A stretch of DNA of 64,000 nt from Aegilops tauschii subsp. strangulata (taxonomy: Eukaryota > Streptophyta > Magnoliopsida > Poales > Poaceae): assembly GCF_002575655.3 (NCBI RefSeq), contig NC_053040.3, forward strand, positions 466,040,780 to 466,104,779. Direction: 5' to 3'. Under the pieces are notes generated by a model. It saw nothing but the letters and a program-made list of their open reading frames with translations. It was not told the origin of the DNA and did no database searches. The stretch's first letter is position 1, and each line of letters begins with the position of its first letter. A program made the translations under genes and the position numbers. Positions 9,947 to 60,809 of this stretch are shown here, piece by piece.

Positions 9947-11094
9947 TTAGTTCTCATTGTTCTTCTCCTTCTCCTTCCTCAGCCTGATGCGCCAAGAGCG
10001 GCGAGGCGGTGGAGGCAGCTGTGGGATGTAGTCTTCTACCACAATTGGCGTGGTCATGTCGCCCAGCTGTGGGATCGCCGGCGCCACCACCGGTGCGTGG
10101 TCATTGTCAGGCACCACCACCATTGCGAGGCCACCTTCAGGTAGGACGGGCACGACCATCGCTAGGTCATCCTCAGCCACCACCATCTCTTGCCCATGGT
10201 CAGCCAGCACCATCTCTTGCCCATGGTCAGCCAGCACCATCTCTTGCCCATGGTCAGCCACCACCATCTCTTGCCCATGGTCAGCCACCACCATCTCTTG
10301 CCCTTGGTCAGCCACCACCAGCGCTAGGTCATCCTCAGCCTGATGCCCATCGTCATCCTGCAGCGGCCCACTCTGCTCCTCTTCTCCCCCACTCCAGTCC
10401 GGATCATCCTTCTTGCTGTCTTTGCTGCTGCCAGAATCGCTGCTGCTTTCGCTAAAGCCAGAATCGCTGTTGCTTTTGCTACAACCATAATCGCTGCTGC
10501 TTTGGCTGTAGCCAGTATCGCTGCTGCTGCTCCCATTGCCTGTCCAAATGCAACAATGGCCGTTAACAATCGATGTGAGACAAAGCCAAATGTAGAGGAA
10601 TAAGAAGAGGCAGAACGCACTGGCATCTTCGTCGTCAGTGTAGCGCATGCGACACATAGTCGTGTTGAAAACCTTCACGATGAGCATTGTGGCGTCATCG
10701 TCGTACCTGAAGAGAAGAAAGTACCCGGTCCGTAGGTCGTAGGCACTGTAGAACTTCTCCCAGCCACGGCACAGGTACATGTGGCCCTCCTCGATCACCA
10801 ACTCCACGTCCCACAGCCTGCGAACCCCGCTGCCGGCCTGTCGGAGCTTCACATTATGTGGCGGATCTTCACCCAGCATGTTCATAAAAGTGTCAGGCAG
10901 CCTCTGCAATTTGGGACAAGGAGTGATGTAGCAAACAACAGAGTTATCATAATTAGATGGGTGAAGGGGAGATCTCTCGTTTTATATACCTGCCTCGTGG
11001 CTGATACTGAAGTCCCAAGTATGATACTGAAGAACTCAAAAGCATCCAACTCGTACTCCGGTGAGGCAGAGCGGCGGTGGCTGCTTCCCCCCAT
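9947..11094 (-). CDS. B3-domain DNA-binding protein carried by a CACTA element
   Basis: Three exons fit: 11094-10990 (ATG at 11094), 10903-10621 and 10539-9947, with GT-AG introns of 86 and 81 bp. The intron phases agree, giving about 326 aa without a stop. The second intron is a multiple of 3 and open, so it could also be retained. Residues about 18-130 match a REM-type B3 domain: FEFFSIILGTSVSATRQRLP, VKLRQAG, WDVELVIEEGHMYLCRGW, YDLRTGYFLLFRYDDDATM and LIVKVFN. B3 domains bind DNA in the major groove, in the nucleus. The C-terminal half is a Ser/Asp-rich stretch, then five or six copies of VVADHGQEM, then a basic tail RRSWRIRLRKEKEK. The exon structure argues for capture of a plant gene. 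Target and activity are unknown. Confidence 0.8.
10160..10330 (-). repeat. 27-bp tandem repeat inside the B3 gene
   Basis: Near-identical 27-bp units (CATCTCTTGCCCATGGTCAGC core, plus strand) encode the 9-residue repeat VVADHGQEM. As the unit is a multiple of three, copy-number change keeps the frame. Confidence 0.85.
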
Positions 11095-11099
11095 CTCTG

Positions 11100-13117
11100 A
11101 TAAGCAGCAGAAGAGACCAATTAGTACCAGGATTATACATCGACTAATTATACACCTGACCCCATTTATAAAACATGCGATGTATTCCACAATACAAAGA
11201 ACAACTACCGTTAATAGGTTGTTGTTTAGAAGGTTTCCCACATGTGTATCAGAGAACAAACATATGATCTAAGGTGAAACATTAGTGCCATGGTTAGTGG
11301 TAATTGGTAAATGCTATTTCTTTCTTTAGTCGATTTCATTTGCCTTGGTCTGAGAAAAAAATGCTACAGTTAGGAAATGCAAACATCAGATTAGAAATTA
11401 TGTAGAATAGATAATCAACTTTGCTGATTCCTAATAATAGACTTATTGATTGACATTTAGGATCAAAATGCAACCAATGAAAAAAGAAAACAGAGGATCA
11501 GAGACAAGCCATGTCTTGCATTGTTTCTATTTTTGTGTTTACGGAAGTACCTAATGGTATTTTTATGATGTTTTGCAGCTGGTGAAAACGTATGAAATTG
11601 CATTGTTTTGCAGCTGGTGAAAGAAGCACCTAATTGCATTAACACATGTCCAGTTCCAATAGAAATCTTGGGGTACATTCATGCTTGAGACCCATAACAG
11701 GAGCTTACTAGCATTATGCATGCATTAACACATGCATCAAGCACCAACTGCATTGTTTTGCAGCTGGTGAAAGAAGCACCTAAACTACAATACCTTACAT
11801 GTAAGCAGTGCAAAAGGAGATGAAGAAGATATCAGTTGCTAAACCCGACAGCAATTGTTACACCGCTTTAATATCTCTCAACACTTTCTAGTAGCAACTA
11901 ACAACCTGTATCATCATATAAGGTTTGCCCTATTGAAGTTTTGCACGATTTGGAATATATAACAATTAATGATGTAATATGGCAATGAAGCAATTGCATT
12001 AAAAAAACTAAGACATGTGGAAGAGTGGACATTGTACCTGTCAAGGGAGAGGATTGCTCTGCGACACCACCACTTCTCAAACTTGGCCTTCACAACACAC
12101 TACATAGACAGATGTAAACTAAAATATGAATTCCTTTGCACTGGGATCATAAAACAAAATATTTAGAACTGAATCATATAGTAATTAATCTCAATCTACA
12201 GGGCTGCTGCACTCTAATCTTTGCAAAAGAACAAAAAAATAACATTGTTTTAACCTAAACAGAAGTGCCAAATACTAAACAATGACCATTATTGTTATAC
12301 TAGTGAACTATCTGCTAGAGATTCTACACCCATACTGAAAGAAATGTACGAGGCTACGAGCCTGGCTCAAGAAGGAATACTCCAACAGGCTATGCATTCC
12401 CAATGTTTGGTGTGTGACTGACTTTTGTGTACACTAGGCCATCACTGAATACACGAGTATGATATCCATATCAGAGGTTGATGAATACAGATGTTGTTAT
12501 GTTGATTACATCGGCGAGTGTGCAAAGTGGTCATAGTGAATTAGAAAATAACAGAAACAGAGGACCCTCTTTTAAAGTGCTCGCAATTGTTTTTTAGTTT
12601 GATATGTCTTCACAATATGGGTGTGTGCATTTCTCAAATACAGAGGCCCTATGATCTTCTTAACTTATCTGAAAAATATTATTCGACATTTCAGGCCTTG
12701 GATTACTGTCAGCTACGAGATGAAGTTCGGAGAAAGGAGCTAAAAGTTGACTCACCAAGTCTGCTCTATATTGTATCATACAGTTCATATTTTGTTTCTT
12801 CGGAAATTTCTGAAATTCAAAGTTACCCTCGAAGTGGTAGAGAATGGACAGAACTAGAGCATGGGCCATTGTCAGCTTTTGTGTTAGTACCTTGAGCCCT
12901 GGTCACCTTGAGCTTCTGTGTTATTACCTACGAGCTGCCACCTTTTTGGCGCACCAGGGAGCTGGAGTGGCTGGAGGTCGAGCTGGGCTGCTAGACGTCG
13001 ATGGGGCGGATCTCGACTGCGAGGGAGTCAGTCCATGGTGATGGAGTCGACGCTGGACAGGTGGGAGGGAATGGGGAATGGTGGAGAGAGGGAGGAAGGA
13101 GGAAGGAGGAGAGGTAC
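11100..13117 (-). other. Probable long leader intron of the CACTA B3 gene
   Basis: About 2 kb lies between the candidate leader exon donor at 13117 and the ATG exon acceptor just before 11094 (minus strand CTTATCAG). It is AT-rich and has no convincing coding sequence. The phrase TTTTGCAGCTGGTGAAA recurs near 11570, 11610 and 11755. Confidence 0.45.
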
Positions 13118-13390
13118 CTGGTCGCCGGAGGGGTCGGGGTCGGCGAAGGGGTCGCGGTCGGGATCCGAGCTCTTCCGGGTCCTCGCTCGCCGCGGTCGAA
13201 GGAGAGCAGGGGCCGGTGGCGGAGCACGGCAGGGGCAGGCGGGATGGGCGCGTCGGGGCCGCGCTCGCCGGCGTGCAGGCGCGGCGGACGGAGGGGCGGA
13301 GCAAGGGGGCGGCGGCGTACGGTTGGGGTCGAGGAGTGGGGAATCTGGCGAGCGAGGGAGGGAGGGAGGCGACAGTGCGAGGGGAACAAG
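13118..13390 (-). promoter_or_regulatory. Candidate 5' leader exon of the CACTA B3 gene
   Basis: This GC-rich block reads on the minus strand as a pyrimidine-rich leader ending GGCGACCAG followed by GTACCT, a good splice donor at 13117. It would join the acceptor just upstream of the ATG at 11094. Several frames are open here on both strands only because of base composition, so I do not call a protein. Confidence 0.4.
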
Positions 13391-13396
13391 TATAAA

Positions 13397-13482
13397 AATT
13401 CTAATGGCGCACCTCCCCCTGGTGCGCCATAAGTACGTCGATTCTAATGGCGCACCTCCCCCTGGTGCGCCATTAGAATTTT
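13397..13482. repeat. Internal GGCGCACC inverted pairs
   Basis: Two copies of TAATGGCGCACCTCCCCCTGG, each facing a GGTGCGCCAT, lie next to the candidate leader exon. This places putative transposase-type motifs directly at the presumed promoter of the cargo gene. Confidence 0.75.
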
Positions 13483-13544
13483 GTTTTACTTACTAGCCCG
13501 ACTGGTCAGGTTATATCCCACCTAACCCTATCTCCATCAGAACA

Positions 13545-13616
13545 CGCCCACTAGCCCGACTGGTCAGCACGCAACACACACACTAGGAGGTCCTGGGTTC
13601 GATTCCCAGGCTCCCC
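13545..13616 (+). pseudogene. tRNA-like relic with A and B boxes
   Basis: TAGCCCGACTGGTCAG fits the internal A box of tRNA genes. CCTGGGTTCGATTCCCAGG forms a T arm containing the B box, followed by GCTCCCC. The 5' acceptor strand does not pair with that 3' end and the anticodon arm is unclear, so this is not a working tRNA. The A-box segment is repeated at 13494-13509 without a B box. Confidence 0.5.
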
Positions 13617-13626
13617 AATTTTTTTA

Positions 13627-13844
13627 TGCATTTAAAATGCTGTTTGATATTTATTTGTGTTTAAATATGTTCAAACTTGTTTAAATCATAACAGTAATTT
13701 TTTTTAATAAAAACAGTAATAATTTTTATAAAAAATGCATTTAAAATGCTGTTTGATATTTATTTGTGTTTAAATATGTTGAAACTTGTTTAGATCATAA
13801 CAGTAATATTTTTTTATAAAAACAGTAATAATTTTTATAAAAAC
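13627..13844. repeat. 109-bp AT-rich tandem duplication
   Basis: Two head-to-tail units begin TGCATTTAAAATGCTG at 13627 and 13736 and match nearly throughout. The unit ends in runs of T and A. It shows no coding potential. Confidence 0.85.
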
Positions 13845-14545
13845 AGGGTGCGGGGGGTGCTCGGCGGCGGTGGAGCGGGGGAGGGTGCGGTGGGTCATCG
13901 GGGGTTGCGGGGGGTGCTCTGTCCTTGTCGTTACCGGTGTAGGATTCCATCGTTACCCCGGAGTTCTGATAACCATCGCTCTTCATGTCCTTGTCCTCGG
14001 TGTAGAATGTGTAGCTGTTGAATGCGAGGCAGAGGTTGCGGCGCACGCGGGCGAGGGCGAGGTTGGTGTCGGCCCTGCGGCGCTGCTCCGGCGAGAGTGG
14101 GGTGGGGTCGGAGGGGAGGATGGGGAGAGGGAGGCGGCGGGGGCGCGGATTGGGAGCGGACGGAGAGGAACTGGCGCGGGGGAGAGGGACGAAGGGGGAC
14201 TGGCGAGGGAGAGGGAGGAATTAGCTATAGCATTCATTTGTGACGGTGGAGCAGGCCGAAGAGGGTGCAGGGGGTCGTCGGCGGCGGTGGAGCGGGCCGG
14301 GGAGGGTGCGGTGGGTCATCGGCGGCGGTGGAGCAGGGGAGCTAGGGTGCGGTGGGTCGTCGGCGGCGGTGGAGCAGGGGAGGGTGCGGTGGGTCGTCGG
14401 CGGCGGCGGTGGAGCAGGGAAGGGTGCGGTGGGTCGTCGGCGGCGGTGGAGCGGGGGAGGGTGCGGGGGGTCGGCGGCGGCGCCCGGTGGAGCGGGGTAG
14501 AGGGTGCAGGGGGTGCTCGGCGGCGAGGGGGACCGGATCTGGCGA
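13845..14545. repeat. GC-rich minisatellite
   Basis: Units of about 37 bp built from GGCGGCGGTGGAGC, GGGGAGGGTGCGGTGGG and TCGTC recur, once near 13860 and in series from about 14250 to 14545. The long open frames here on both strands are a by-product of GC-rich repeats. The middle part (13910-14240) is GC-rich non-repetitive sequence. Confidence 0.8.
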
Positions 14546-14599
14546 GGTGGGATAGCGATCGCGAGATGGAGGGGGATCGAGATCAAGTGTCCATGAAAT

Positions 14600-14983
14600 A
14601 TACACTAATGGCGCACGGGGAGCAGTGCGCCATTACTAGCTTAAACTAGTAATGGCGCACTGCACCAGGTGCGCCATTAGTAGTTTTGCAAAAAAGTAAA
14701 AAATAAAAAAATATTTTAGTGGCGCACTATGTTGCTGGTGCGCCATTACTAGTTACAACTAGTAATGGCGCACTATGTCCTGGTGCGCCATTAGTATGTC
14801 TGGCAAAATAAAATAAAATAAAATTTGTTACTAATGGCGCACCGTTTGTCTGGTGCGCCATTAGTGTCTTTCACACTAATGGCGCACCAGCACATGGTGC
14901 GCCATTGCTATATAGCAATGGCGCACCACATGTCTGGTGCGCCATTAGTGGCCATTCCATCTATAGCCCTTTTCCTAGTAGTG
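14600..14983 (-). repeat. Right subterminal array and terminal inverted repeat
   Basis: About a dozen copies of TAATGGCGCAC and GGTGCGCCATTA occur in facing pairs, mirroring the left end. They end in CCTTTTCCTAGTAGTG, the complement of the left terminus. Confidence 0.9.
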
Positions 14984-15040
14984 TGGAGGCCCAACAACGT
15001 CTACAAGAAGAAGGTTGCGTAGTAGACATCAAGCAGTTTC

Positions 15041-15058
15041 TGGCGCCGTTGCCGGGGA
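15041..15058 (+). other. Primer-binding site, tRNA-Asp type
   Basis: TGGCGCCGTTGCCGGGGA begins 9 bp after the LTR end at 15031. It is identical to the site of the minus-strand element at 1446-1463. Confidence 0.88.
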
Positions 15059-15156
15059 GGTGAGTGCTTGAAGGTATATCTTTAGATCTTGCAATCGAAT
15101 CTTTTTGTTCCTTGTTTTATCACTAGTTTAGTTTATAAAAAGAAAATTACAAAAAA

Positions 15157-16995
15157 ATGGAATTGAGTTTGCCTCATACACTTCATCTTTTTAATATCTT
15201 TCGTGAGAATGATGGAAAGGAAACTTGTGCTCAAGTGCTAGAAGAAGAAGTCTATAAAATGTTTGGCACTAAATATTTGAATGATGAGCATGATTGCAAT
15301 GTTGTTAGTATGAACTCCTTGAATATCCATAGTACTAATGATGATTGCACTAGTCATGATGAAAATGTCTCTTATAAGCATGTCAATTTCTGTGGAGTTC
15401 ATAGAGCTTGCAAGTACACACCCAATAGGGAAAATAGATTTTGCAAGAGGCATAAGTATTTGGAAACTAAATGGTTGCAAGAAAGGCTAGATGTTTGTGC
15501 TGAAAATTTAAAATTTCTGCGCCATACTTGTGAACTTTGCAATGAACATGGTCATTTAAATCTCCAATGCAAATTGTTTCATGATCGAATCATGTCCAAA
15601 AATTGTGATGACTTGATTTCCCTTGCACATCATAATGAACTTAGTTTGCTTTTGGGTTATGAAGAAATGAAACGTATAACTAAGCATATTCCAGAATATA
15701 ACCTTGAGAAATTCCTCGATATTGATCTAGAAGAAATTTTTATGTATTGTGCGGTGAATTGCATTGAAAATCCTTATATTGCCAATTACATAAAGAAAAG
15801 AAAACAAATAGAAGATGAAGAGAATACTAATGAAAGGGAAGAGGCTTCCCAACATCCTCCTATTATTTCTTATGATGAATCAGGTAATGAGGAGGAGCCT
15901 TCTATTCAACCAATCTCATTAATAAGGAGCTCAAAAAAGAGGGTTAAACCCACACATGATGTGAAGAAGAAAAAGAAAAGACGGAGGAGCAAAGGTAGAA
16001 AGGTATCCCTCCCAAATGATGTTGCTCCTATTACTCATTGTGATGATGATAATTGCTATACTATTGGTGCTATCCATACTATTAATGATGAGAGTGATTA
16101 TGCTTATGATATGAAAAGGCCCAAGCTTTGGGATGCTATGTTTGATGAGAATGACATGTTTGAGAATATATTTGATGCAATTAATGTTTGTCCCAAGCTT
16201 GGGGATGCTATGTTTAATGAAGATGATATTTTTAGCCTCCCAAGTTTTGATGAGCAAATTTGTTATGATGATAGCATGCCTCCTACTTATGATGATTATA
16301 TTGATGAAAGTGGGTTTGGAAGAGTGTCAACTTTAGGAAGTAATGATCCCACTATTTTGGAGGATGTTGAATCTTATTGTGATAATTATGAAAGTGGATT
16401 TGGAGAGGTCATGACTTTATTTAGTAATGATTCCACTATCTTGGAAGAGGTTTCAATTGATTATGATGAGAACAAAGTTGCTACTTATGATGATTATTGT
16501 GATGATACTTATGCTATAAAAAGTAGCGATGATTATATTTATAAAACTTGTCATGATTCTGATTACCCTTTTTCTGAACATTACCCTTTTAATGTGGAAA
16601 CAATTTATAGTATTTGAGTTTCTTATGATACTCCCACTATTCTGAATGAGAATTTTTTTGCTTATGTGGAGAGTAATAAAATTTCTATGCTTGTAGATCA
16701 TGAAAAGAATGCTTTAGGTGCTGGTTATATTGTTGAATTCATTCATGATGCTACTGAAAATTATTATGAGGGAGGAATATATGCTTGTAGGAATTGCAAT
16801 AATATCAAGTTTCCTCTCTATGTGCTTAAAGTTTTGAAGTTATGCTTGTTTTGCCTTCCTATGCTAGTTGATTATTGTTCCCATAAGTTGTTTGCTCACA
16901 AAATCCCTATGCATAGGAAGTGTGTTAGACTTAAATGTGCTAGTCATATTCTTCATGATGCTCTCTTTATGTTCCAATTCTTATCTTTTATGTGA
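15157..16995 (+). pseudogene. ORF of unknown function in a non-autonomous Gypsy element
   Basis: From the ATG at 15157 the frame is open for 486 codons, stops at TGA 16615-16617, and then stays open in the same frame to 16995, about 612 codons in all. One nonsense change is the simplest explanation. The protein is acidic and Asp/Tyr-rich toward the C-terminus, with a basic patch KKKKKRRRSKGRK near residue 270 that could be a nuclear signal. A Cys/His segment (CELCNEHGHLNLQC) near residue 128 resembles a zinc knuckle. Two imperfect repeats carry PKLWDAMFDEND / PKLGDAMFNEDD. It has no gag or pol signature that I recognise. Position after the primer-binding site suggests a structural role replacing gag, which is inference. 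Confidence 0.75.
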
Positions 16996-18517: not shown

Positions 18518-18706
18518 ACATGATCACACCTTAGTACTCTTTGGGTGTTAATCACATAGCGATGTGAACTAGATTATTGACTCAGTAAAACCATTTGGGT
18601 ATTAGTCACATGGCGATGTGAACTAATCCCATAGTGATGTGAACTATTGGTGTTAAATCACATGGCGATGTGAACTAGATTATTGACTATAGTGCAAGTG
18701 GGAGAC
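18518..18706 (+). repeat. Copia 3' untranslated region with tandem motif and right copy of the duplication
   Basis: 18518-18623 repeats 7794-7900. It is followed by two more TCACATGGCGATGTGAAC-type units, the phrase CTAGATTATTGACT and the polypurine tract GTGCAAGTGGGAGAC directly before the LTR at 18707. Confidence 0.82.
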
Positions 18707-25176: not shown

Positions 25177-25679
25177 TGTCAGATTCAGGGTTCCGCAGAC
25201 TCTTGAGAGGTTTGAACTCTGGGGTGCGTGCGAAGTACTCTCTCTTCCGAATCTACCTGCTCAACGATCCCATGGCCTAGCTCGACGAACCCAAGCACTA
25301 CAAAAAAAGACACATCCGTGACATTTTGGGCCGAACGAATTTTTTTTTCTGTCATACTTATGACACTTCTATGACAATAATTGTGACAAAACACGGTATC
25401 ATCATAGATGTGGTGGGGTCCTACTTCTATGACAAAAAATCATGACAGAAAATGGGCTTTTCGTCCTGGGCGGGCCGGAGACGCAGCTGCATGACATTCT
25501 TTGGGCCGTCCATGACGGAAAAAACCATGGTAGAAGCGAGGGCGAGGAAAATATCGAGGTGTTCCCGGTTACGGTGGGTGGTCGGGGCCGAGCGATGCAC
25601 ATTTCTCTCGTACACGCACGCGCATGGGTGCGAGGCATTGGGCTCTAACTGAACCCGAGTGATTGCACCGCAGGCTATG

Positions 25680-26560
25680 CGTTACTGAACCCGAGCGATC
25701 GATCGATGGCTGTTAACTGAACCCGATCGAGCGATTCCTTCGCTACTGCTGCTAACTGAAGCCGATCGATGCTGCCTCTGGATGAACAGTGAGTGTTGCT
25801 GGGGGGGTTTGGATGAATTGGACCCCGTGGTGTTGCCTCTGGATGAACAGTGAGCGTTGCTGGGGGGGGGGGGTTTGGATGAACAGTTCCCGGCGGGGGT
25901 GGATGAACAGGACCCCATGGTGTTGCCTTTGGATGAACATGACCTCGATCGATCGAGCCGGTTGGGGCTGGATGAACAGGACCCCGTGGAGGGCTGGATG
26001 AGCAGGACCACCCCGTGGAGGGCAGGATGAACAGTAGATGGTGGAGGGCTGGATGAACAGTAGCCCGTGGAGGGGTGGTTGAACAGGAGCCCGTGGAGAG
26101 GGCTGGTTGAACAGTAGCCGGTGGAGTAGCGCGTGGTGGAGGCTAGATGAACAGGAGCCCGTGGATGAACAGTCGCAGGTGGAGGCTGGAGGAGGTCGAC
26201 GGTGGATGAACAATAGGCCATGGAGGCTGGAGGGGGTCGACGGTGGAGATGAACAGTATCCTGTGGAGTCCCGTTTTGCGGTACGCCACACCCCTCCCGA
26301 TGAACAGGACCCCCGTTTCGACCGTAGCGCTCCAACACAAGTCCGTTTCCTCCGTTTTGCGGTACGCCACACCCCTCCTGATCAACAGGGCCCCCATTTC
26401 GACCGTAGGAGGTCCGTTTCCTCCGTTGCGGTATGCCAGACCCCTCCCGATGAACAGGATCCCGTTTCGAACGTGGCCGGTCGAACAGAAGGCCGTTTCC
26501 TCTGTTCTGCGGTACGCCAGGCCTTGTTTCCATCTGCTGTTCTGTCCAAGCCCTCCCGAT
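25680..26560. repeat. GGATGAACAG minisatellite, copy 1
   Basis: Irregular tandem units carry GGATGAACAG, GACCCCGTGG and GTGGAGGGCTGGATGAACAG. They then become longer units with TTTTGCGGTACGCCACACCCCTCCC and GAGGTCCGTTTC. All three minus-strand frames stay open for long stretches, but as repeat translation only. Confidence 0.85.
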
Positions 26561-26880
26561 GAACACGACGACGCATTCTGTTCCGACCCAGCCGGTTGGC
26601 TCCCCATGAACACGACGACGACGCTGTTTCTCCGTTCCGACCCAGCCATGTACACAAGCCCTGGCCGTACGTACGTGCGAGTAGGTGTTCGAGACCCCGC
26701 CCGTATGTACGTACGTGGCCGTATTTACTTTATTGCACCCTGGCCGCTGTACGTACGTGTACATGCTATGTGCACACCTCTACTACGACATGTGCGCGCC
26801 TCTACATCGACCAGTATGTACGTCCACGTTCGCGACCAGAATGACAACGCTACGTACGCTTCGACCAGGTGGTCCCGACT

Positions 26881-27013
26881 GTCAGGCACTTCCTTGCGTG
26901 CGAAGATGTAGCTGGTGGGTCCCAGCAGTCAGGGGGGCGAATCGTTTTTTTTGCCCGGACGCACTTCCTTGCGTGCGAAGATGTAGCTGGTGGGTCCCAG
27001 CAGTCAGGGGGAA
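26881..27013. repeat. 75-bp tandem array, two units (copy 1)
   Basis: Units read CACTTCCTTGCGTGCGAAG, ATGTAGCTGGTGGGTCCCAG and CAGTCAGGGGG, then a T run. They start near 26889 and 26969. Confidence 0.88.
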
Positions 27014-29280
27014 ACGTTTTTTTTCATGAAATACGGTGGCCCGTCTGATGGGTCCCCGCTGTCAGGTGGAGGAATAATTATTTTGTGCGTAATAAGGAGG
27101 CACTTCCTTGCTGCGGCCGTGGACCCAGCTATCAGCCTCTCCACGTACAGTACTCTTCCAATGGAAGTCGGTCGTTGACCACATTGACCACGCCGCGCCG
27201 AGAGCACCAAGGCGGTGGACGACGGCGAGGCCTAGGAAGGGGACGACGCGGAGCCAGGGAAGACGTGGCAGTGGATGCCCACGCGGAGAGGAGTACGAGG
27301 GTTCACTGGTTCGGCTGCGGTGTGAGGCTGCCGTCGCCGCAGAATAACAGGGGGTGTGGGTGAGTAGAGGGATGGCCTGGCCAGCAGTGGGAGTAGTAGG
27401 GGGGCGGTGAGGCCTCCGCGTCATCGCAGTCGGCCATGGGAGGCAGGAGCACGACGCACGACCGATGCTGGTTTGGGCGGCTGGAGCAAGAAGACCAGAG
27501 GTTGAAGAAGCACTACGGCCGTTGGATGGACATCGTACGGTCAATGGAGCTAGCATCGTGCATATTGACTAAGTTGACAAAGCCCTCCGTCCCCGTCAAC
27601 TTAGTAGGCCCACAAGTCAGCCTCCCACTATACTGGGTCCCAGCTAGCAGGGGGAGTATTCATTTTTTTATGCGTAATAAGGAGGCACTTCCGGTGGGTC
27701 CGAGCTGACAACGGGGGGAACATTTTTTTCGAAAATACAGTGGCCCGTCCGGTGGGTCCCAGCAGTCAGGGGGAAATGGTTTTTTCGCCAAATACGGTGG
27801 CCCGTCCGGTGGGTCCCTGCTGTTAGGTGGAGGAATAATTATTTTCCGCGTAATAAGGAGGCACTTCCTTGCGGCTGCCGTGGACCCAGCTGTCAGCCTC
27901 TCCACGACAGTACTCTTCCGATGGAAGTCGTTCCTTGACCACGTTGACCACGCCGCGCCGAGAGCACCAGGGCGGTGGACGACGGCGAGGCCTAGGAAGG
28001 GGATGACGCGGAGCCGGGGAAGACGCGGCAGTGGATGCCCACGTGGAGAGGAGTACGAGGGTTCATTGGTTCGGCTGCGGTGTGAGGCTGCCGTCGCCGC
28101 AGAATAACAGGGGGTGTGGGTGAGTAGAGGGATGCCCTGGCCAGCGGTGGGAGTAGTAGGCGGCGGTGAGGCTTGCACGAGAGGCGGGAGCAGGCGGTCC
28201 CGTCGACGCTGGATTTGGCGGCTAGAGCAAGAAGATCAGAGATTGAAGAAACACGACGGCCATTGGATTGACATCCAACGGTTACGTCTGCTAGAATCGT
28301 TTGTTGACGTATATAATAACTAAAAAAATCTTGCATACGCGTCAACTTAATAGGCCCATAAGTCAGACCATTCCCTCTTTTTTTAATAATTTATATATAG
28401 CTCATTGTGACTTCTTATGCAATTTATTGCAGTCCGTTTTTTTGGTTGGCTAGGGCCAATTTCGCATATTTCTGTGGGTTCCAAACTATTTTTAATACCA
28501 AAATGTCGAGCCAGATTTAAAGTACTTTGAAGATATATTTAAACTAGGTTAATGCCGAGTGAAATAGGAATCTGAAAATGTGAAAAAATTAAGAAATTAT
28601 AAAGTAATTGCCAATTTGTCATCTATTTTTATATTCACAACCAATTTCATATTACTTTCAAGATTTGCAGGCGTCTTGAAAGAGTTGCAGCCCATCAGGG
28701 CGTAGAAAAATAAATAGGCCTGGATTGGGTATTCTTCAGAAAAAATAAACTGGGCTCATTTTCACAAAGAAAAAATAGCTGGGCAGGTCACATGGTGAAC
28801 ATAAAATATAAGCCTGGGCTAGATGGGCCTCAACCCAGTTCAAACCCTGCTCCGTCTCAACAATAACAAAAAAATACTGCTCGAGCAGCTACGTCCCAGG
28901 TGTCAGCCGATCTTGTGCTGTTCTCTTATCTATTGACTATACGCTCACAATGTCGTGGGTCCCAGATGTCAGGAAAACACCAGGAGGAAGCATTTTATTT
29001 TTCCATACGCTGACATGGTGGGCCCGTACTGTCATCCTCTCCACGTACTTCTGCCAATTCCTGTTGTTTGTTGACCATGTTGACAACGCGAGAGGGCGGC
29101 GCCGCGGCGAGCACACCAGAGCGCGCGGATGACGACGACGCTAACGATTTAGGAGATGGTGGGGCGGTGATGCGTGCGCTGAGGCGCAGCCAGCCATGGG
29201 AGGCGGAAGCAGGCGGCCCCGCCGGCGCTGGTTTGGTTTTGGCGGCTGGAGGAAGACAGGACTGAAGAAACACGACAAAC
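27010..29280. repeat. Three diverged 0.3-0.55-kb units in copy 1
   Basis: Units at about 27010-27545, 27740-28260 and 28955-29280 share GTGGGTCCC, CAGCCTCTCCACG, GTTGACCA and AGATTGAAGAAACACGAC-type blocks in the same order. The stretch between 28310 and 28955 is AT-rich with no gene. The third unit is the most diverged. Confidence 0.75.
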
Positions 29281-29501
29281 TATAAAAGCAGCAGGAGTAC
29301 TTAACAACCTTAACTGAAACCAGCAGGGGCACTTAACAACCATAGTTGAAAGCAGTATGAGTACTTATACAGGTTCCAAACCGTACAAAGCACGCCTCGA
29401 ACAGTGCTGCTTTGCCTACTGTTAACCAAGGGTGAGGACGCCAAGCCCCAGGACAAGGCCCAGGCGCCACCCCGCGCATCCACAACCTTCTGAAAGCGGC
29501 T

Positions 29502-30047
29502 TCATCTCGCAGTGTGGTCAATAAATAGGATATTCGCTTTAGAGCCATGGAAAAGCAGGAACATAATCTTCTGTCCTATTCTCCAAGATGGACGAGCCTT
29601 CATTATTTGAGACCACCCATGAATAAGTATCTTTTCACCTCCAAGGGGAATGGAGTAGGTCGACATAAACATCATGTTGTGACCAAGCGCAAGTCTGACC
29701 CGACCATGGTCAGGCATCTGTATAGGAACAATAGAACTGGGCAGTTTCTGTTTCAAGAAGATCACAACTGTAAAACTGTGTATAAGCAATAGTTTATGAA
29801 CAACATATATAACGGAAAACAGCTCGTACCATAAGTTTCTCGACACAGTTGGACCTGTTCAACGAGTGCGGCAATGGCACACATATCCCACGTGGCCTTC
29901 CACCATTGAAACGCCCCAAAAGGACCTCAAGACAATCAATAAAGTGTAGGAACTTGTGGATGTCGTCCCAGTCAACTTCAGTGCCATCAGTAACTGCCGA
30001 GTTGTTACAGAATAACAAACGAGCAGCCTGCTTAACTCTGAAAAAAC
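29502..30047 (-). pseudogene. 3' exons of a B3 gene, 5' end lost at the duplication junction
   Basis: Two exons match the last two exons of the gene at 34610-35776 with the same lengths: 30047-29830 (218 bp) and 29747-29502 (246 bp). GT-AG borders are kept and there is no stop. The B3 residues LPSSIVPIQMPDHGRVRLAL, IHGW and IGQKIMFLLFHGSKANILFI are present. The junction at 30066/30067 falls in the intron just upstream, so the first B3 domain and the promoter are missing. This is a truncated gene copy that is otherwise undamaged. Expression would need a new promoter, for example from the CACTA terminus next to it. Confidence 0.8.
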
Positions 30048-30559
30048 CTACACGTGCCACCAATTACACTACAAAAAAGACACATCCGTGACATTTTGGG
30101 CGAAACGATTTTTTTTCTGTCATACATATGACACTTCTATGACGATAATTGTGACAAAACCTGGTATCATCATAGATGTGGTGGGCTCCTACTTCTATGA
30201 CAAAAAATTATGACAGAAAATGGGCTTTTCATCCTGGGCGGGCCGGAGACGCAGCTGCATGACATTCTTTGGGCCGTCCATGACGGAAAAAACCGTGGTA
30301 GAAGCGAGGGGGAGGAAAATTTCGGGGAGTTCCCGGTTACGGTGGGAGGTCGGGGGCCGAGCGATGCACGTTTCTCTCATACACGTACGCGCGTGTGTGC
30401 GAGGCGTTGGCTCTAACTGAACCCAAGTGAGGCGTTGGGCTCTAACTGAACGCGAGCGATTGCACTGCAGGCTACGCGTTACTGAACCCGAGCGATCGAT
30501 CGATGGCTGTTAACTGAACCCGATCGAGCGATTCCTTCGCTACTGCTGCTAACTGAAGC

Positions 30560-34609: not shown

Positions 34610-35776
34610 TCATCTCGCAACGTGGTCAATAAACAGGATATTCGCTTTAGAGCCATGGAAAAGCATGAACATAATCTTCTGTCCTATTCTCCAAGATGGA
34701 CGGGCCTTCATTATTTGAGACCACCCATGAATAAGTATCTTTTCACCTCCAAGGGGAATTGAGTAGGTCGACATAAACATCATGTTGTGACCAAGCGCAA
34801 GTCTGACCCGACCATGGTCAGGCATCTGTATAGGAACAATAGAACTCGGCAGTTCCTGTTTCAAGAAGATCACAGCTGTAAAACTGTGTATAAGCAATAG
34901 TTTATGAACAACATATATATAACGGAAAACAGCTCGTACCATAAGTTTCTCGACACAGTTGGACCTGTTCAACGAGTGCAGCAGTGGCACACATATCCCA
35001 CGTGGCCTTCCACCATTGAAACACCCCACAAGGACCTCAAGACGATCAATAAAGTGTAGGAACTTGTGGATGTCGATCCAGTCAACTTCAGTGCCATTAG
35101 TAACAGCCGAGTTATTACAGTGTAACAAACGAGCAGACTGCTTAACTCTGAAAAAACCTACACGTGCCACCAATTATAAGAAAATATTAGTTAGAAGTAG
35201 CATCTTCACGAGAGATTCGTTGCTACTTCTAAAGTTAAATTGTGATTAGTTAGACAGAATAGGTGGATTAAGAAGTAATCGAGGCAACAAGCAAGAACCA
35301 GATACAAAATTGACATGGATGAACAATTGGAACGACGTCGGGGTGGAAGATCGCAGTGAAGATGAGACCAGGTTCTGCTATTTCCATCAACATTCGTGCG
35401 CCAACTTTCAGTCCGTAACACTTGAGAAAGTTTATCCAAGTTCGGCCATAAAAAAAGCAGCGATCTTCTTGGTTCATGAACCCAACTCGGAACTTATATC
35501 CATGGCTTGTCTTCACTGTGACCATTAAACTAGTGTATTCAGTTATGGCAAGGCCGAGCATCTTGAGTACATGTGTTCTGGCAGAGCAAATAATACACTG
35601 CAGGAAAAATAATATGAGAACACAACATGTTCAAAAAACCCCCACCCTCCCGGATAGAAAAGAGGATTCTAGGAACATACTGTGCGCGTTTCAAAATGCT
35701 GTGTTAGGATGAGAAGGAACAAGTGTGGCGTCTCGCCGAGGGCGCGGAAACCTGTAGGGTACTCGCACTTTGGGCA
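34610..35776 (-). CDS. Double B3-domain protein gene in the giant CACTA
   Basis: Four exons fit with matching phases and GT-AG borders: 35776-35681, 35597-35306, 35157-34940 and 34855-34610, giving about 283 aa with no stop. The acceptor before 35776 means more 5' sequence exists. A possible ATG at 35838 would need a 47-bp intron, so the start is unsettled. The N-terminus has a C-X2-C pair (CPKCEYPTGF). The first B3 domain runs FLLILTQHFETRT, YKFRVGF, FFYGRTWINFLK, LKVGARMLMEI. A linker KFLHFIDRLEVLV follows, then the second B3 domain: LPSSIVPIQMPDHGRVRLAL, ILIHGW, RIGQKIMFMLFHG, NILFIDH. REM-type B3 proteins bind DNA in the nucleus. The last two exons are duplicated at 29502-30047. A captured host gene is likely, and its target is unknown. 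Confidence 0.75.
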
Positions 35777-36709: not shown

Positions 36710-37985
36710 CTACTGAAGAATTTCAAAGTTGATTTGGACCAGCTCTCCTTGCCGAGAAAGTTTGATTTTGACATCATCCCCTACCGCAAGACATGATTTA
36801 GATTTGAACCTTGACTATCCTTTAGCATCAATCATCATGCGACCATCCTTTGTACTTACGGTATATTGAGCAGGTTCATTCACACCAAGGCTGCACATGG
36901 TAAGAGAAACATGGCCGCGGTCGCCCAGATTGTTGAACGACTCCCTCGTTGCTCTAGGAATTCTCTGTTTGCAAACAAGAAGACATACCCAAACAGTTAG
37001 ATCAACACAGTGAATCATGTGAAACAACATGGAAAGAAAAAAGAACGAAGCACTTGGGCGGCCAATGCTTACCAAGAAGGTGGACATGTCGGTTTTTGTA
37101 AGGACTTTGGTATATGAAGTGCGAACTGCAGCCCAGTCTGTTGCCGGTGCAACTGCACAGGCCGGAGCAGATGCAAGTGCAAGTGTTGGTGCAGGTGCCG
37201 AAGCCGCTGTTGCTGCCGGAGATGGTGCTCCTTGTAGAGCTGGTGCCGGTGTCGGAGCAGGTGCCGGTGTCGATGCCCGATCCTTCGGTAGATCAGACAG
37301 AACCGCTGACGCGGTCGGTGCCCAATCCTCAGCTGGATCAGACTGAGCTGCTACCGCTGTCAGTGCTAGAGCAACTGCCGGTGCTCGATCTGTGCGAGAC
37401 AGCGGCGATCGTGTCTGGTCTGCTATGATCAGCTTTCTAACTTGACTAGGATCCGTGACCGTGATCCAGTTTTTTCTTCATTTCTTTTAAACGCGAGAAT
37501 GACTAATTGTGGCGTTTTTGTTAAACCAAACTGCAGTTCATCATAGGGATTCAGCTTGTACTCAAACAACAGACTGATCCGATTTTTTCCAGTAATATAA
37601 GTGATGGACAGTGCCTTCATTACTGACACGACATAAGAAGTGAAACTTGCAAAAATAGCCATCGTAGAGCAAACCAAACGGTTTATTCTGTGATGAATGT
37701 CACATGGCAAAACCTGCATCGTAAAATTGCAGGAAAAGAAAGAAAAGATGACATTAAATCAATAAGATTTAGACAGTAAATCAATAAGATTTACTTGATG
37801 TGACACGAGTGAATCCTTACCAGGAAATCACTATGTTGAAGTACTAAACAGAAGATTGATCGTCCAACTACGCGTGGCATGCAGGGGTCCCGCCTACTCC
37901 CACAAGCAGGACAGTCCAAAGGTCGTGACAAATCGTATGGACCGAACATCCATGGGACTGGAAATCCTGGTGGGTACGATAAACC
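36710..37985 (-). pseudogene. Second double B3-domain gene, with a stop and a frameshift
   Basis: Three exons are seen: 37985-37821 (55 codons), 37713-37073 and 36964-36710, all with GT-AG borders. The start lies upstream and was not found. The N-terminal part has CPACGSRRDPC and a divergent B3-like block (FCLVLQHSDFLVLP, ISLLFEYKL, YDELQFGL, LVILAFK). A long Ala/Pro linker follows, then a clear B3 domain: YTKVLTKTDMSTFL, RIPRATRESFNNLGDRGHV, DGRMMIDAKG, VGDDVKIKL, ELVQINFEIL. Two lesions are visible. One base is missing in an A run near 37470, since the exon phase works only with one more base. The conserved Trp codon of the GW motif is TAG at 36815-36817. Layout resembles the neighbouring gene, so the two are probably old paralogues. 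Confidence 0.78.
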
Positions 37986-43135: not shown

Positions 43136-43196
43136 GTTAGCGTGGGTACCGTTTCGATTTTTTTTCAAATAACTCCTCATTAATTAATTTATAGTA

Positions 43197-47284: not shown

Positions 47285-50200
47285 TTACATGAGGGAGTTA
47301 ACCCAACCTACAAGTCTATGTCTAGAACTATCCTTAAGTCTATGAGACAGCAACAGGATGTCATGAACAAAATTACGTCTCCAAGCTGCAAAAGTAGCCC
47401 TTGTCCCCTTGAAGGTTCTTCCATTCCTCAAGATCCAAATATTCCAAGCAGCAGTGAGCATCACTTCAAAGAAGAATGGATGTACAAATCTCTGCCTTGC
47501 TTGGGAGATAGACTGATGAACATTTGAACCATGGCTCCAATCAATTTGCAAGTAATTCCAAACCCTGGAACTGAAGTTACACTCAAAGAAAAGGTGTTCT
47601 CTATCCTCATAAACATATGCATTGCAGATGACACATATGTTATCATCCAAAGAGGATCAACAATGCCTCCTGACCAACATATCCTTCGTGTTGAGCCTGT
47701 CAAAGAAAAGTAGCCAGCCAAAAACTTTAATTTTCATAGTACATCTACTTTGCCACAGCCACTTGCAAGGTTGGATGGTTGGGAGGTGAGTATGCATGAT
47801 GACATAAAAGCTCTTAGCAGAGAACTGCCCAGACTTTCCAGGCCATACCCAAACATCAGGCAAAGTGGGGTCTCTCTGCAAATTAAACAACCATCCTTGG
47901 AGGAGTTCCAGTTCTGCAGCCGCCACCTGTGAGATTGGCAGGTGAAACATGGAGAACAAATCTTGAGATTGAATGAAGTCCCTGACTGAAACTTTGTCAT
48001 CCAAAAAAAATAAAAAAAGTCTTGGAAGCCTCAAATTTAAAGGTTTGGAGGATCCTCCCAGATGCCAAGCATCAAGCCAAAAGAGAGCAGAATCACCCAT
48101 ATTATTTTGCACTGTGTGTAGCGACCCGACCTCAGACGGTCAAGCCTCTGTGCTTAAGTGTCATCCCTGGATCGGTATGCTGACACACACAGTACTCGAG
48201 GATTTATAACAGAGGTAAATCACATGTATAAAGTAACGTAAATACTATTACCTCAATCCAAATAGCGGAAGTAACAACAAGGTTGTGGATTCCCATCAAC
48301 ACCAACGGCAAAGTTGAGTGTAGAAATCGTAACCCTAACGTATCACTTACTCGTCGTAAGAAATCCTGCAACATGAGACTTTGCAGCCACAAAGGGTCAG
48401 TACATTGAATGTACTGGCAAATTCACACTATAGAGCAATGCTAAATAATGGCTATCACTACATGCATATATGGCTGGTGGAGGCTCTATGGTTAACATAT
48501 TTTTGCGAAAGCGAATTTTTCCCTACTGCAAAGGAATATATTTTATTTAACTACAAAGTTGGTTGAAAAAATTATTGAGAAGGTTCCTCCAACTCAATCC
48601 CAAAATAATAATCATTAACCCAACAACTTAATTAAGTAAAGTGATGAGATCAACATGATAATTCAAGAACCAGACACTCAAGATGTCCATAACCGGGGAC
48701 ACGGCTAATCATGATTAGTTTGTACACTCTGCAGAGGTTTGCGCACTTTTCCCCACAAGACTCAATCTCCTCCGTTGGATTTCTCGCACTACACGGTGTT
48801 TGAGAAACGGATGACCGAGACACAGTCTTTCAGAAGCATTAACTCTAACCCTGGGTAGACAGTACCAACCTACACCCCCTACATCTGCTAGCCTACCACT
48901 TGAAGAGGTCATGCAACCTACTCAACTATGCTAGGGCCCATAATAGCTTGTGGCTGCACACGGAAGTTTCTAGCATGAATAATCTTATGATCCCTTTGAG
49001 CCTGGGTGGCATTCCATAGGGTGATCACACGGGTCCTCCGGGATCCCCTTGGGCAAGCACTGGGTTCTCCAGGTGCCCGGGCAAACCACTGGGTGCTCCA
49101 CGGTGCCCCTACCAATCCACCCAGATGTGTATTAAAGTAGCCACCTTAAGTTAACCATTAATTAACAACTCTCACATCTGTCATGAATACACTCAACCAA
49201 TCCACGTCTACGAGTATAGCATAGTAGTATAAGCATAACGTAGTAGTAACTCCCAAGGTTTGAATGCAGGACAATAGGTTCCTACCTCATCAACTACTTC
49301 CCAATACCCACATGTTATGAATCCTAACCATGCAATGTTTGAGGGTTGAAACTAATGCATAAAAACTGGGTATGAAAGGGATATGATCAAAGCGTGAACT
49401 TGCCTTGTACTGTTGATGAAGATGATTGGCACTCATAACTCCTGATAGTTGTACTCATCACACTCCGGTCAATCTATCGTAAGCAAGCAATAGTAACCAC
49501 ACATAAGCAATCACTCAAATGATCGGGAAGAACGAAGAAGACAATTCGGAAAACATCAAAACCAAGCAAATAACTCTTGCAACATAAAACAATTTCTAAC
49601 AGTACCAAAATTATGTGAATTTGGCCTTATCAGAAAGTTTAGGTCAAGAGCTTCTATTTGCAAAAAGAATCAATTAAATCGGAGTTATAAAACTCGAGTT
49701 ACGATCAAACAAAGTTCAAATACAAATCTGTTTGAATTCAAATTTTAAAACTTTCAAAAATATGTTTAAGTTGATTATCTGGATAGAGGAGATCATAACG
49801 AAGAATTTGCCGTTGCTTTCATAAAAAACGGAGCTCCGGTTCAAAAGTTACGAATAGAGGAGATCATAACGAAGGTTTGAACTTGATTTGAAGTTGAATA
49901 AATTTGATTTGCTCAATCTCCAAAATCCACTTTTTATTGGAAAGAATATTTCACAAGGAGTATTTTGCAAAAAGAATCGTTTAAATCGGAGTTACGGATA
50001 AAAAATGCAAAAATGAAAGTTTGGGAAAGTCCTTTTATTCCCTCTCATTTAAGTTTCAAAAAGTTTCGAATTTCACTCAATTTCACACAAGCAATCAAAC
50101 AATCAATCAAATCTATCTATTTAATATATCATTCCAAAATTTAGAATTTTGGGATGTTACACTGTGGCAATTGATCTATAATGGTCAGCAAGCCTTAGAA

Positions 50201-57305: not shown

Positions 57306-57589
57306 TTTCCCGCAAGGCTAACCTTTCTTGAACTGTCTTGGAAGTGGCCTCGGTTCAGTATTATTTTGTTACGCTGCTTTGTAATCTGCTTCTTCGTTGC
57401 GCGTTATGATCACTGGTGGCGAACTTTGATGCCCAGTGGATGTAATATACCATAAATCCTTTATTGTATAGTGTAGGCTTATTCTTAGTTACTATGCCGT
57501 AATTTCTTTATTGTATAGAGTAGGTTTGTTCTTAATTCTTACTAGTTACTGCCATCATTCACTATCTAAAAAATCAGATGTAGTCGACC

Positions 57590-58460
57590 GGGCCGAAACA
57601 TTCGCCTCTAACGGGCTGGTGTTTAGCGGGCCACAATTGGGTCGGCCTGCATCTTTCTTGGGCCTGAATCATTGGGGCCTTCACACTTTGCGCGAGGCCC
57701 ACAACTTACACTGGCCTATATTTTAGTTGGGCCTTTTGTGGACCCAGCGCTTAGTTTCGCCCAGGTAGCGTTGGGCCATTAACAGGCTGAATATTGTACT
57801 GGCCTGTAACGGCCCAGATGAAACCATGGGCCTTTAGCAGGCCGAATGCATATTGGGCCTCAATTTTCACTAGTCGTCGACGGGCCTTCAGCAGGCCGAG
57901 ATGTAGACGGGGCCTTTTTGGGCCCAGTTATATCATGGGCAGTTACCAGGCCGAAACATATCTTGGGCCTTAGTTGGCCCACTGATATCATGGGCCTTTA
58001 AGAGGCCGAAAGCTTAGTACAGACATCAACGGGCCGAATTATGCGACAGGCCTTTAACAGGCCCAAAGTTACGTTGGGCTTAACTGTTGCCACCTTTATC
58101 ACGGGCCGTTAGTGGGCCCGATGTCCTGTCGGACCATATATGGCCCATGGGCAGCACGGGCCATTCCCAGGCCAAAAGTCACACCGGGCTGAAATGGGCC
58201 CATGTCTACATCGGGCCTCTAACAGGCCGAAAGTCACTGGGCTATAACTGGGCCCAAATATTCAGCGAACAATTAACGGGCGAGATCTGGCTTCGGGCCA
58301 TAAATGGGCCCAAGTATTCGGCAAACAATTAACGGGCCAGATCTGGCTTCGGGCCGTAAATGGGCCTCTATTAAGGAGGCCGTTATTGGGCTGGCCCACT
58401 AGTACCTGAGTAAGTACTACGGGCCTTTGACTGGGCCGGCCTTTTTACATATGGGCCTCT
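57590..58460. repeat. Right subterminal GGCC array
   Basis: About 45 GGCC motifs in under 900 bp, mostly as GGGCCTTTA, ACAGGCCGAA and TGGGCCCA, are spaced about 20 bp apart in both orientations. CACTA subterminal arrays are binding sites for TNPA-type proteins; that role here is inference. Confidence 0.88.
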
Positions 58461-58898
58461 GTTGGGCCGTGCCACGTGTCCACGTATCATAGGTGCTTTG
58501 GGTCCAATGAGTGGATGACATCTATCCCAACGGTGAGCCGACACGTGTTTTCTCCAGCCAATGATGATTTTACACGTGGAAAATCCCCATTGGTCGGGGC
58601 TGTTAACGGGTTATCGGATCCAAAACCGGACCCAATAGCTTAACGGCGTTCCGTTACGGTGGATGCCACGTGTCGGTCACCCTTGACGAAAGCACTTCTG
58701 TGACGCGCGATTTATCGTCATGGAAGTGGACACTTCCGTGATGATAATTTTGGTAATGTCATGGAACACTTCTACGACAGCACAGGTATGACTATCTTGA
58801 TTCTGTCATAAATTTGTCATGGATGTACATGCATGACAGAAAACGTGACCTACTGTGATAAACACGTATCATCACAGAAGTGTAGTTTTTTTGTAGTG
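58461..58898 (-). repeat. Right terminal region of the giant CACTA
   Basis: It contains CACGTGTC-type E-box/G-box motifs (58480-58670) and then TGTCATGGA / TGACAGAA repeats. It ends TTTTTTTGTAGTG at 58898. The left end has a comparable TGACA-rich stretch (25340-25450). Confidence 0.8.
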
Positions 58899-59639
58899 AA
58901 GGGACAAGAGATACAGCAGTTTATCCTGGTTCGGGCCACCTTGCGGTGTAATACCCTACTCCAGCTTTGTGGTGGATTGCCTCAGGGGGCTGAGGATGAA
59001 CTAGTACAGTGGTTGAGCAGCCTCAGGAGGTGAGGTGTTCTTGAGCTCGATGAGCTGGTGGAATGGTCAAGGTGGAATCCATCCCCTCCCCATGGTAGTG
59101 GCTAAGTCCTATTATAGTGGCCTTGGTCCTCTCCCCAAATGTAGGCGGGAAGGAATGCCACAATGGCCAAATTTGAAGGGGGACAACTAGTACAAGCTAT
59201 CCTGACAAAAGCTGTCTTTGCTTGCGAAAGGCTCTAGTGGTGACGCTGCGGTGGGCTCCGCGATGACCTCCGTCCCGCTGTCCTGGCGGTCTTGGTCTTG
59301 TTGCACCGATATGGAAACCTTTGCTTGATTCCTCGGGACCCCGCGCCTGCGCTTGGCTCCTTAGCACCAAAGAGGAAACTGGTACACTGCGCCCCCTGGC
59401 GCCCGCCTGGCCTTGGTCGTCATGGCTCACGTCATATGAACCTCGTGAGGTGCACCTTGCATAGATATCTCTGCTCCTCGGGAGCCAGCCTAGTGAGGCT
59501 GCCCCCCCAGGGAGGCTTGGCCCCTCGCTAGGGTCTTGAGTTGTTGTTGCTGAAGCCGCGCCATACCGGGCCACAGACCGAGCCACGCGTGGGCCGCAGG
59601 CAGGCAAGTCTGGGTACCCCCGTTCCCAGAACGCTCACT

Positions 59640-59656
59640 GTAGCCCCCGGGCCCAA
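59640..59656 (-). other. Polypurine tract of the Tat-type element
   Basis: Minus-strand reading is GGGCCCGGGGGCTAC immediately before the LTR start, the usual form in these Gypsy elements. Confidence 0.6.
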
Positions 59657-59882
59657 GGCATGCTCGAACTTGGCTTCGAGGAGAAGCCAAAGTGAAGGGC
59701 ATAGCGCCGCGGGCCCCAACCGCCTACGGCCTCGGTCGACGCATGGTGATTGATGGGACATGGGTGTCTCCGCTTCCCCACGCTGCCTCGGCAACCGTTC
59801 AACTTGACGAGACTCTGCTGCATGCAGAGGAAAACCATCATTACGTGCGACCGTGGAGGCCGGTGGTTGGCCTGCCCTTGGC

Positions 59883-59889
59883 TATAAAT
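59883..59889 (+). promoter_or_regulatory. TATA box for the antisense ORF
   Basis: TATAAAT lies 101 bp before the ATG at 59984, followed by a pyrimidine-rich leader. It points against the retrotransposon genes. Confidence 0.55.
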
Positions 59890-59983
59890 GAGGGGAGGGG
59901 TGGAGCCCCCTTTGCTCATCACCTTCTTCTCGTCGCCCGCTCTCTCTTCTTCCTCTCTGCCTCGCCGTCTTGCCGTAGTACTC

Positions 59984-60809
59984 ATGGCGCCGACAAAGAG
60001 GTTCTTTGCCGCGGAGAAGGGGTAGGCTCGCCAGGAGGGGCCTGGCTCGCCGCCACCCAAGAGGGAGAGGGGCCGCCCCCGCAAGCACCCCGCTACCCCT
60101 GTTGTGGCTTCTCGGGGGCGCGGGCGCACTCCTTTGGGGACCGACGTCATCCTTGGTGGCCGCAACGGTGTTTCTTCTCACGGCGGGAGCTGCCCGGGGC
60201 GGGGCAGCCCCTGTGCCGAGGGGAGGCGCGCCGTGGTTGCCCGGCCTACCTGGCCGCGCTTCCATTCGGCGGAGGTGCTCCCGGAGTTCGTCGTGTGGTC
60301 GGAAAGGCCGGCCGGCACCTGGCTCCAGCTCCCGCGCTCCTTTGGCGGTGAGCTGCCGGCCACGGGTCTCGATGGCCTCTGGCTGCTGCAGCAAGGCCTC
60401 ATCGGCCACGGTGGAGGTCTCCGCCGCGGGCAACATGGCCCTGCCTGCAGCTGGCAGGCGTTCGCCTGCGCGCAGCTTGAGCAGGAGGTGCACCCTCCAC
60501 TTCAAGTATGACGGCGTCACGACCCTCTACGTGAGGGTGTTTAGGGAAGATAGTCGTCGCGCAGGGTGCTGCCCCGAAGACAGCGGTGGCGACGATGAGC
60601 TTGGCCTTGACGACGGCCGTGACGACGCCGAGGGCAAGTTTGCCCTTGGCGACGGCCGCGGCTCGTCCAGCGGCGGCGGTTCCTCCTCCAGTGAGAGAAC
60701 CAGCAGCGGCGGCTATGACCAACCGCCACGCCGCCGGGCTCACTTCGAGGACGGTGGCTGGTCGTCCCGTCGTCACGCTCCGGTGAAGCGTGAGGAAGGC
60801 TCAGGCTGA
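59984..60809 (+). pseudogene. Antisense ORF of the Tat-type element, B3-like
   Basis: From the ATG at 59984 the frame reads MAPTKRFFAAEKG, hits TAG at 60023-60025 and continues with an AT-hook-like KRERGRPRKHP. FHSAEVLPEFVVWSERPAGT, WLQLPRSFGGELPA and SWQAFACAQLEQ follow. A frame change near 60490 leads to CTLHFKYDGVTTLYVRVFRE and an acidic/Ser-rich tail ending at 60809. The order W..LP..F, then (G)W.AF, then LHFKYDG..TLYVRVF resembles a B3 domain of the REM type, though more weakly than in the CACTA genes. It lies between integrase and the LTR on the opposite strand, where Tat-lineage elements often keep an extra ORF. If B3-like, it would be a nuclear DNA-binding protein. This copy is broken. 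Confidence 0.5.

Follow-up and report, generated by a model that had tools for sequence, protein, structure and literature searches.

The question raised by this locus was whether B3 DNA-binding proteins encoded by plant transposons work for the elements that carry them. The locus is a stretch of 64,000 nucleotides of Aegilops tauschii subsp. strangulata (contig NC_053040.3, positions 466,040,780 to 466,104,779), hereafter the window. A preliminary description had placed B3 domains in three unrelated elements of the window, namely, a 5.5-kb CACTA element, a 33.6-kb CACTA element and a Tat Gypsy element, and had suggested that the encoded proteins bind repeats of their own element as a transposase partner or as an anti-silencing factor. 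Support for B3 was found to be confined to the 5.5-kb element, and the recurrence in three elements was therefore abandoned. For the B3 gene of the 5.5-kb element, we put at roughly 0.55 the probability that it has long been the second gene of a CACTA lineage with a TNP2 transposase and that its role is TnpA-like, motif binding and the part in transposition being predicted from sequence.

The 5.5-kb element occupied positions 9468-14983 (5,516 bp) and was flanked on both sides by the target site duplication (TSD) TGG. Its terminal inverted repeats (TIRs) were CACTACTAGAAAAAGG on the left (9468-9483, plus strand) and CACTACTAGGAAAAGG on the right (14968-14983, minus strand). The motif ATGGCGCAC occurred eight times in the first 400 bp (9468-9867), many of the copies forming inverted pairs, 13 times in the last 400 bp (14584-14983) and four times in the interior; it was absent from the rest of the window. 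A Markov model predicted 0.005 copies for the left 400 bp. Dense arrays of a short motif near the B3 gene were thus found as had been claimed, and CACTA-type TIRs, a 3-bp TSD and subterminal arrays at both ends place the element in the CACTA superfamily. When its 12 open reading frames (ORFs) of at least 120 aa were scanned with Pfam, B3 alone scored above the cut-off, and the TNP2 transposase (PF02992) had no match in these ORFs, nor any in the window among the matches listed (best 150 of 19,434 candidates). The element is a compact CACTA transposon with the B3 gene as its one recognised gene, and it is probably non-autonomous. A short sequence within it, GGGGAGCCTGGGAATCGAACCC (13595-13616, minus strand), resembled the 3' portion of a tRNA, and no tRNA gene was predicted in the window by ARAGORN.

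The B3 gene was read on the minus strand as three exons encoding 326 aa. Exon 1 (10990-11094) contained the start codon and the first part of the B3 domain, exon 2 (10621-10903) its core, and exon 3 (9947-10539) an acidic, repetitive tail with VVADHGQEM-type repeats and the stop codon. Identical splicing was found in 310-aa proteins annotated by NCBI in wheat and Ae. geniculata (P0001-P0003; 95-97% identity). In the search against the Pfam B3 profile (PF02362) that the preliminary description had proposed, the ORF at 9947-10981 on the minus strand scored 39.2 bits (E 6.9e-10), above the curated cut-off of 30.1 bits, which confirmed the spliced B3 gene. The closest chain by sequence in the PDB was At1g16640 (1yel; E 0.00066), which we take to be a B3 protein. 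Pfam at E <= 1 gave B3 alone in this ORF, with no match to DUF1985 or DUF287, the domains of VANC proteins. Database relatives were sought with a 308-aa version of the protein lacking two 9-residue tail repeats, and the named relatives all belonged to Triticeae (120 of 159 listed; many rows carried no name). One relative from Triticum urartu, P0117, had a WRKY domain (PF03106) fused to a B3 domain of the transposon lineage; this may reflect the uptake of an exon by a host gene, or else an annotation error.

A lower bound on the copy number of the gene was obtained by searches of the 4.10-Gb assembly (692 contigs). The B3a region as a query gave at least 157 matches, including that of the window (best 150 of 8,574 candidates scored), at 87-98% identity among the matches listed and on all seven large contigs. 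For the F1 group, 30 loci were fetched, together with 12 longer stretches. The TIR on the B3 side was seen in 24 of the 30 loci. Both ends lay inside the stretch in 10 of the 12 longer stretches, the other two being cut at one end; in all 10 copies with both ends visible, the 3-bp flanks were identical and arrays were present at either end, the length of the copies being 4,553-5,637 bp. The target duplications differed among copies. A full frame with all four splice sites was present in 16 of the 30 fetched copies, and a search with non-coding sequence found 40 copies of 98-100% identity, one of them that of the window (105 candidates). The B3 gene is an amplified part of its CACTA transposon and was not picked up by the window copy; B3 sequence was thus not limited to a single copy of this family. 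In many copies (L029, L030, L032, L038, L046 and L063-L078), the B3 gene and the element end were separated by degenerate repeats of the GAAGAAG and GAGCTAAC types; the window copy had no such spacer.

These data also bear on whether the copies are simply host REM-like B3 transcription factor genes that resemble transposon genes. Annotators have indeed named many of the relatives TF-B3, REM20-like or Os03g0212300-like. Near-identical copies dispersed over all seven large contigs, with transposon ends and differing target duplications, argue against this, and we consider it very improbable. It follows for annotation that many wheat and barley genes recorded as B3 transcription factors are transposon genes.

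The B3 gene was not restricted to the F1 group. A divergent Ae. tauschii protein (P0047) used as a query gave at least 155 matches (150 of 9,480 candidates scored), which were dispersed, contained more stops and had 68-94% identity among the matches listed. Another query, P0050, detected another clade with at least 153 matches (150 of 9,393 candidates scored). A tree was built from 112 B3 regions on few columns, with 49 of its 107 inner branches open. It contained F1 and F2 groups, a clade of 27 Hordeum rows and a clade, F3, of 36 rows. The clades were star-like, each a cluster of short tips borne on a longer stem. A long-standing transposon-borne B3 lineage that has undergone repeated bursts in Triticeae is well supported.

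Selection on the B3 exon was estimated from clade consensuses, for which 32 rows were used for F1, six for F2a, seven for F2b and one for F2c. The dN/dS ratio was 0.28 (bootstrap interval 0.09-0.79) between F1 and F2a and 0.19 (0.05-0.54) between F2b and F2c, where it should be considered that the F2 copies were chosen mostly stop-free and that a consensus offsets this bias in part, which does not apply to the single-copy F2c. The remaining clade comparisons gave 0.47, 0.51, 0.72 and 1.51, the last between F2a and F2b. Against two F3 copies, eight values of 0.47-0.71 were obtained, three of them with intervals wholly below 1, all involving L085; the two F3 copies compared with each other gave 0.25 (0.05-1.08). 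Within F1, the ratios for the B3 domain were 0.37 and 0.25, values biased by the search. Frames of the consensus sequences and GT-AG introns were preserved in F1, F2a and F2b, and by eye the same two intron positions were apparently kept in the two F3 copies. Moderate constraint on the B3 domain is likely. Of the earlier proposal that dN/dS would lie below 1, this much stood: most B3 comparisons between clades gave such values. They were significantly so in some comparisons only, and the tail of the protein looked neutral.

An association with transposase was found in the F3 clade. The 36 F3-query matches were compared with the 150 TNP2 matches listed (of 19,434 candidates), and 10 of the 36 lay within 20 kb of a TNP2 match, the expectation on an even spread being 0.053. 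The F3 set consisted of the first 37 matches of the P0050 query minus C3:590872601, which had 68% identity and its nearest listed TNP2 match about 1.5 Mb away; with it included, the count is 10 of 37. In all 10 cases, B3 was preceded on its 5' side by TNP2, the two genes having the same orientation. The spacing between the listed starts was 4.75-5.05 kb in seven of them and 1.6, 11.8 and 19.0 kb in the others.

The end motifs were then compared with the B3 clades. Arrays of ATGGCGCAC were present within the fetched stretch in 25 of the 30 F1 loci, and extension of two of the five loci without arrays revealed the same TIR and arrays, so that all 27 F1 ends reached were of this type; the F1 ends beyond the sample were those of the three unextended loci and of L065 and L066, which fell short of the end. 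For F2 copies, one end was fetched, and it was reached in three of 14 (L069 with L079, L070 with L080 and L074 with L081). All three ends had CACTAC(T/A)GGAATCAG and GCCGTC arrays and no ATGGCGCAC. The B3 clade matched the class of end motif in all 30 copies reached (27 of F1 and three of F2). The B3 gene and part of its 3' flank were common to the elements of both types. Compared with their nearest F2 relatives, F1 proteins had a basic residue replaced by glutamate in the loop aligned with the RAV-type loop known as the DNA-contacting C-arm, and in the same loop, serine instead of the arginine of F2, F3 and Hordeum. In F3 and Hordeum, the glutamate position holds aspartate, so that the serine alone sets F1 apart. 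A tentative history compatible with these sequences is that a TNP2 CACTA transposase acquired B3 as its DNA-binding partner and that the specificity of B3 was re-tuned when, in F1, ends of the GCCGTC type gave way to ends of the TAATGGCGCACC type; we consider this history clearly less likely than not.

A model for such a role exists in maize. Subterminal repeats are recognised there by TNPA, which is required together with TNPD, and CACTA families with dissimilar subterminal repeats have dissimilar binding proteins (PMC2613891). A vacancy of the TNPA type would suit a B3 protein that accompanies TNP2 and arrays specific to its family. In the wheat-group elements, the B3 protein would do the job of TnpA in its CACTA family: it would bind the dense subterminal arrays of its own family and would take part in assembling the ends on which a TNP2 transposase, provided in trans, would act; it may, in addition, maintain the ends in an active state. 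Linkage to TNP2 and the presence of arrays at both ends lead us to prefer this TnpA-like role. The suggestion of a transposase partner gained indirect backing for one element, from the amplified gene, the TNP2 linkage in F3, the B3 dN/dS ratios mostly below 1 and the match of clade and motif in the copies whose ends were reached.

Several observations weigh against this interpretation. The dN/dS intervals reached 1 in four of the six comparisons between clades, one of the values being the 1.51 mentioned above, and in five of the eight comparisons with F3 copies. In the tail, the ratios between clades were 0.79-1.65 with every interval including 1, which has a neutral look, and the tail changes within F1 (30 rows) gave 1.16 for singletons and 1.23 for shared changes, the tail having had no role in the choice of F1 copies. 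Of the 30 young copies, 14 were broken by a stop, a frameshift, a lost stop or a splice change. The expectation for the linkage in F3 presumes an even spread of elements, and the linkage itself consists of proximity, same strand and same order, the element ends lying outside the stretches fetched. No TNP2 match was found beside any of 36 P0047-query (F2) copies among the best 150 of the 19,434 TNP2 candidates; the 6 kb downstream of L069 contained the element end alone, within the first approximately 120 bp, and were therefore uninformative on TNP2 in F2. Furthermore, the match between clade and motif can be explained by a single exchange of ends, so that linkage accounts for it equally well. 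B3 domains that differ by 9 to 10 residues in about 94 go with very different end motifs, and given such near-alike proteins with unlike ends, B3 could be a protein that does not read the motif.

Part of this evidence is what would be expected of a passenger, that is, a host B3 gene that entered a CACTA lineage by an ancient capture and was carried through its bursts with no help to the element, its open frames reflecting recent amplification. Gene capture is known for CACTA elements (PMC13317346); the neutral-looking tail, the ratio of 1.51 between F2a and F2b and the occurrence of the same B3 with two unrelated types of ends also favour it. A passenger would not be expected to have B3-exon ratios significantly below 1 in some comparisons, frames and GT-AG introns preserved in the consensus sequences of three clades, a conserved linkage to TNP2 in F3, or the position of sole recognised gene in compact copies of 4.6-5.6 kb. 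We regard the passenger as rather unlikely. An anti-silencing function like that of VANC, in which B3 would bind the arrays to demethylate the element or activate its transcription and would not itself contribute directly to the cutting or joining of DNA, appears quite unlikely. VANC proteins are plant-element proteins that act against silencing, binding dense arrays of short motifs in their own elements and reducing methylation (PMC5735166), and the arrays of the B3 elements are likewise dense and family-specific. These arrays occupy the two extremities of the element, the usual arrangement in the CACTA superfamily (PMC2613891), the link found in F3 is with a transposase gene, and the Pfam scan of the B3 ORF matched neither of the VANC domains. 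The data do not separate a TnpA-like from a VANC-like role as such.

The proposed TnpA-like protein was compared with known systems. It would resemble TNPA of maize Spm/En and TNP1 of Tam1 as a second protein encoded by a CACTA element beside a TNP2-type transposase, whereas a B3 domain is not mentioned for them in the accessible part of PMC2613891; moreover, binding and the need in transposition were demonstrated for TNPA, and the role of the B3 protein is predicted from sequence. With VANC it shares being encoded by the element and being associated with dense short motifs in the non-coding parts of its own family, the set of motifs varying by family; VANC differs in its DUF1985 and DUF287 domains, in belonging to Mutator-like elements and in having demonstrated binding and loss of methylation (PMC5735166). 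Plant B3/REM transcription factors have the same PF02362 domain and include the nearest PDB chain, At1g16640, but they are single host loci, in contrast to transposon families with thousands of candidates. Pack-CACTA elements are likewise non-autonomous CACTA elements with a gene related to host genes; the B3 gene, unlike a fragment within one family, recurs in families that succeeded one another and, in one clade, is linked to TNP2. The Triticeae element Revolver also has a single three-exon gene, described as 'DNA-binding-like', between inverted repeats. According to PMC3203089 and PMC2851119, its product has 139 aa and is likened to AsnC/Lrp regulators, its length is 2.9-3.0 kb, its TIR is not of the CACTA type and its exon sizes differ; identity with Revolver was set aside.

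No description of B3 genes in CACTA elements was recognised among the open-licence papers searched. CACTA elements are known to encode proteins that bind their ends; a B3 protein in that capacity would be new. CACTA elements make up a sizeable part of wheat-group genomes, and to our knowledge, the recognition of ends by most of them is unexplained. An element-encoded B3 protein in related families with two end motifs would open this recognition to one binding assay. If the TnpA-like role is true, a plant transcription factor fold has been turned into transposon machinery.

The other genes for which B3 domains had been claimed were studied as well. In the 33.6-kb CACTA element (25296-58898, TSD AAG), the existence of which was confirmed, neither of the two claimed genes passed the PF02362 cut-off. 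Its first gene (34610-35776, minus strand; exons by eye at 35776-35681, 35597-35306, 35157-34940 and 34855-34610), claimed to be a double-B3 gene, scored 16.3 bits (E 0.0092) with a single exon and 15.8 bits (E 0.013) with the spliced 283-aa model, compared with the cut-off of 30.1. A PDB sequence search gave no match, and a Foldseek search with a low-confidence AlphaFold model of the second domain (pLDDT 62.8) gave none at E <= 0.001 and no B3 structure among the 50 matches listed. To the eye, this gene looks B3-like, and of the claim only this faint resemblance, below the Pfam cut-off, was retained.

The second claimed double-B3 gene (36710-37985), to which the exon at 37432-37713 on the minus strand belongs, is a repeated gene of unassigned fold. 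It and the relatives tested had no Pfam B3 match, a PDB profile search gave no match, and its AlphaFold model was poor and helical (pLDDT 57.5), so that the claim was dropped. The window copy contained an internal stop. Database proteins included 23 relatives of the first gene and 115 of the second, none of them functionally named; both genes are therefore real repeated sequences of another or more distant sort. Paralogy of the two was considered and dropped, BLASTP between them giving nothing significant (best E 1.4). For the ORF claimed as B3-like in the Tat Gypsy element (59979-60806, plus strand), neither it nor four ORFs on the opposite strand of that stretch had a Pfam match at E <= 1, and this claim likewise failed. 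When a B3a-family hidden Markov model (HMM) was run over 1,263 ORFs of the window, it scored 1.4 bits (E 9.5); because this narrow HMM missed the ORFs of 20 general B3 loci, Pfam was the real test.

The left end of the 33.6-kb element was found to be tandemly duplicated, positions 25296-30066 being repeated from 30067 with mostly 89-96% identity in the blocks found. A second CACTA end lies at 30067, and the first duplicate copy ends within the 34.6-kb gene. The two sides of the element differed in their arrays, with GATGAACAG present 12 times on the left (25596-26595) and GGCCC 39 times on the right (57599-58598). A fragment of zf-RVT (PF13966) in two frames was located within the element at 47288-48139 on the minus strand. 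Elsewhere in the window, at 3626-4321 on the plus strand, gag_pre-integrs was detected with 48.6 bits together with rve below the cut-off, as in Copia-type elements.

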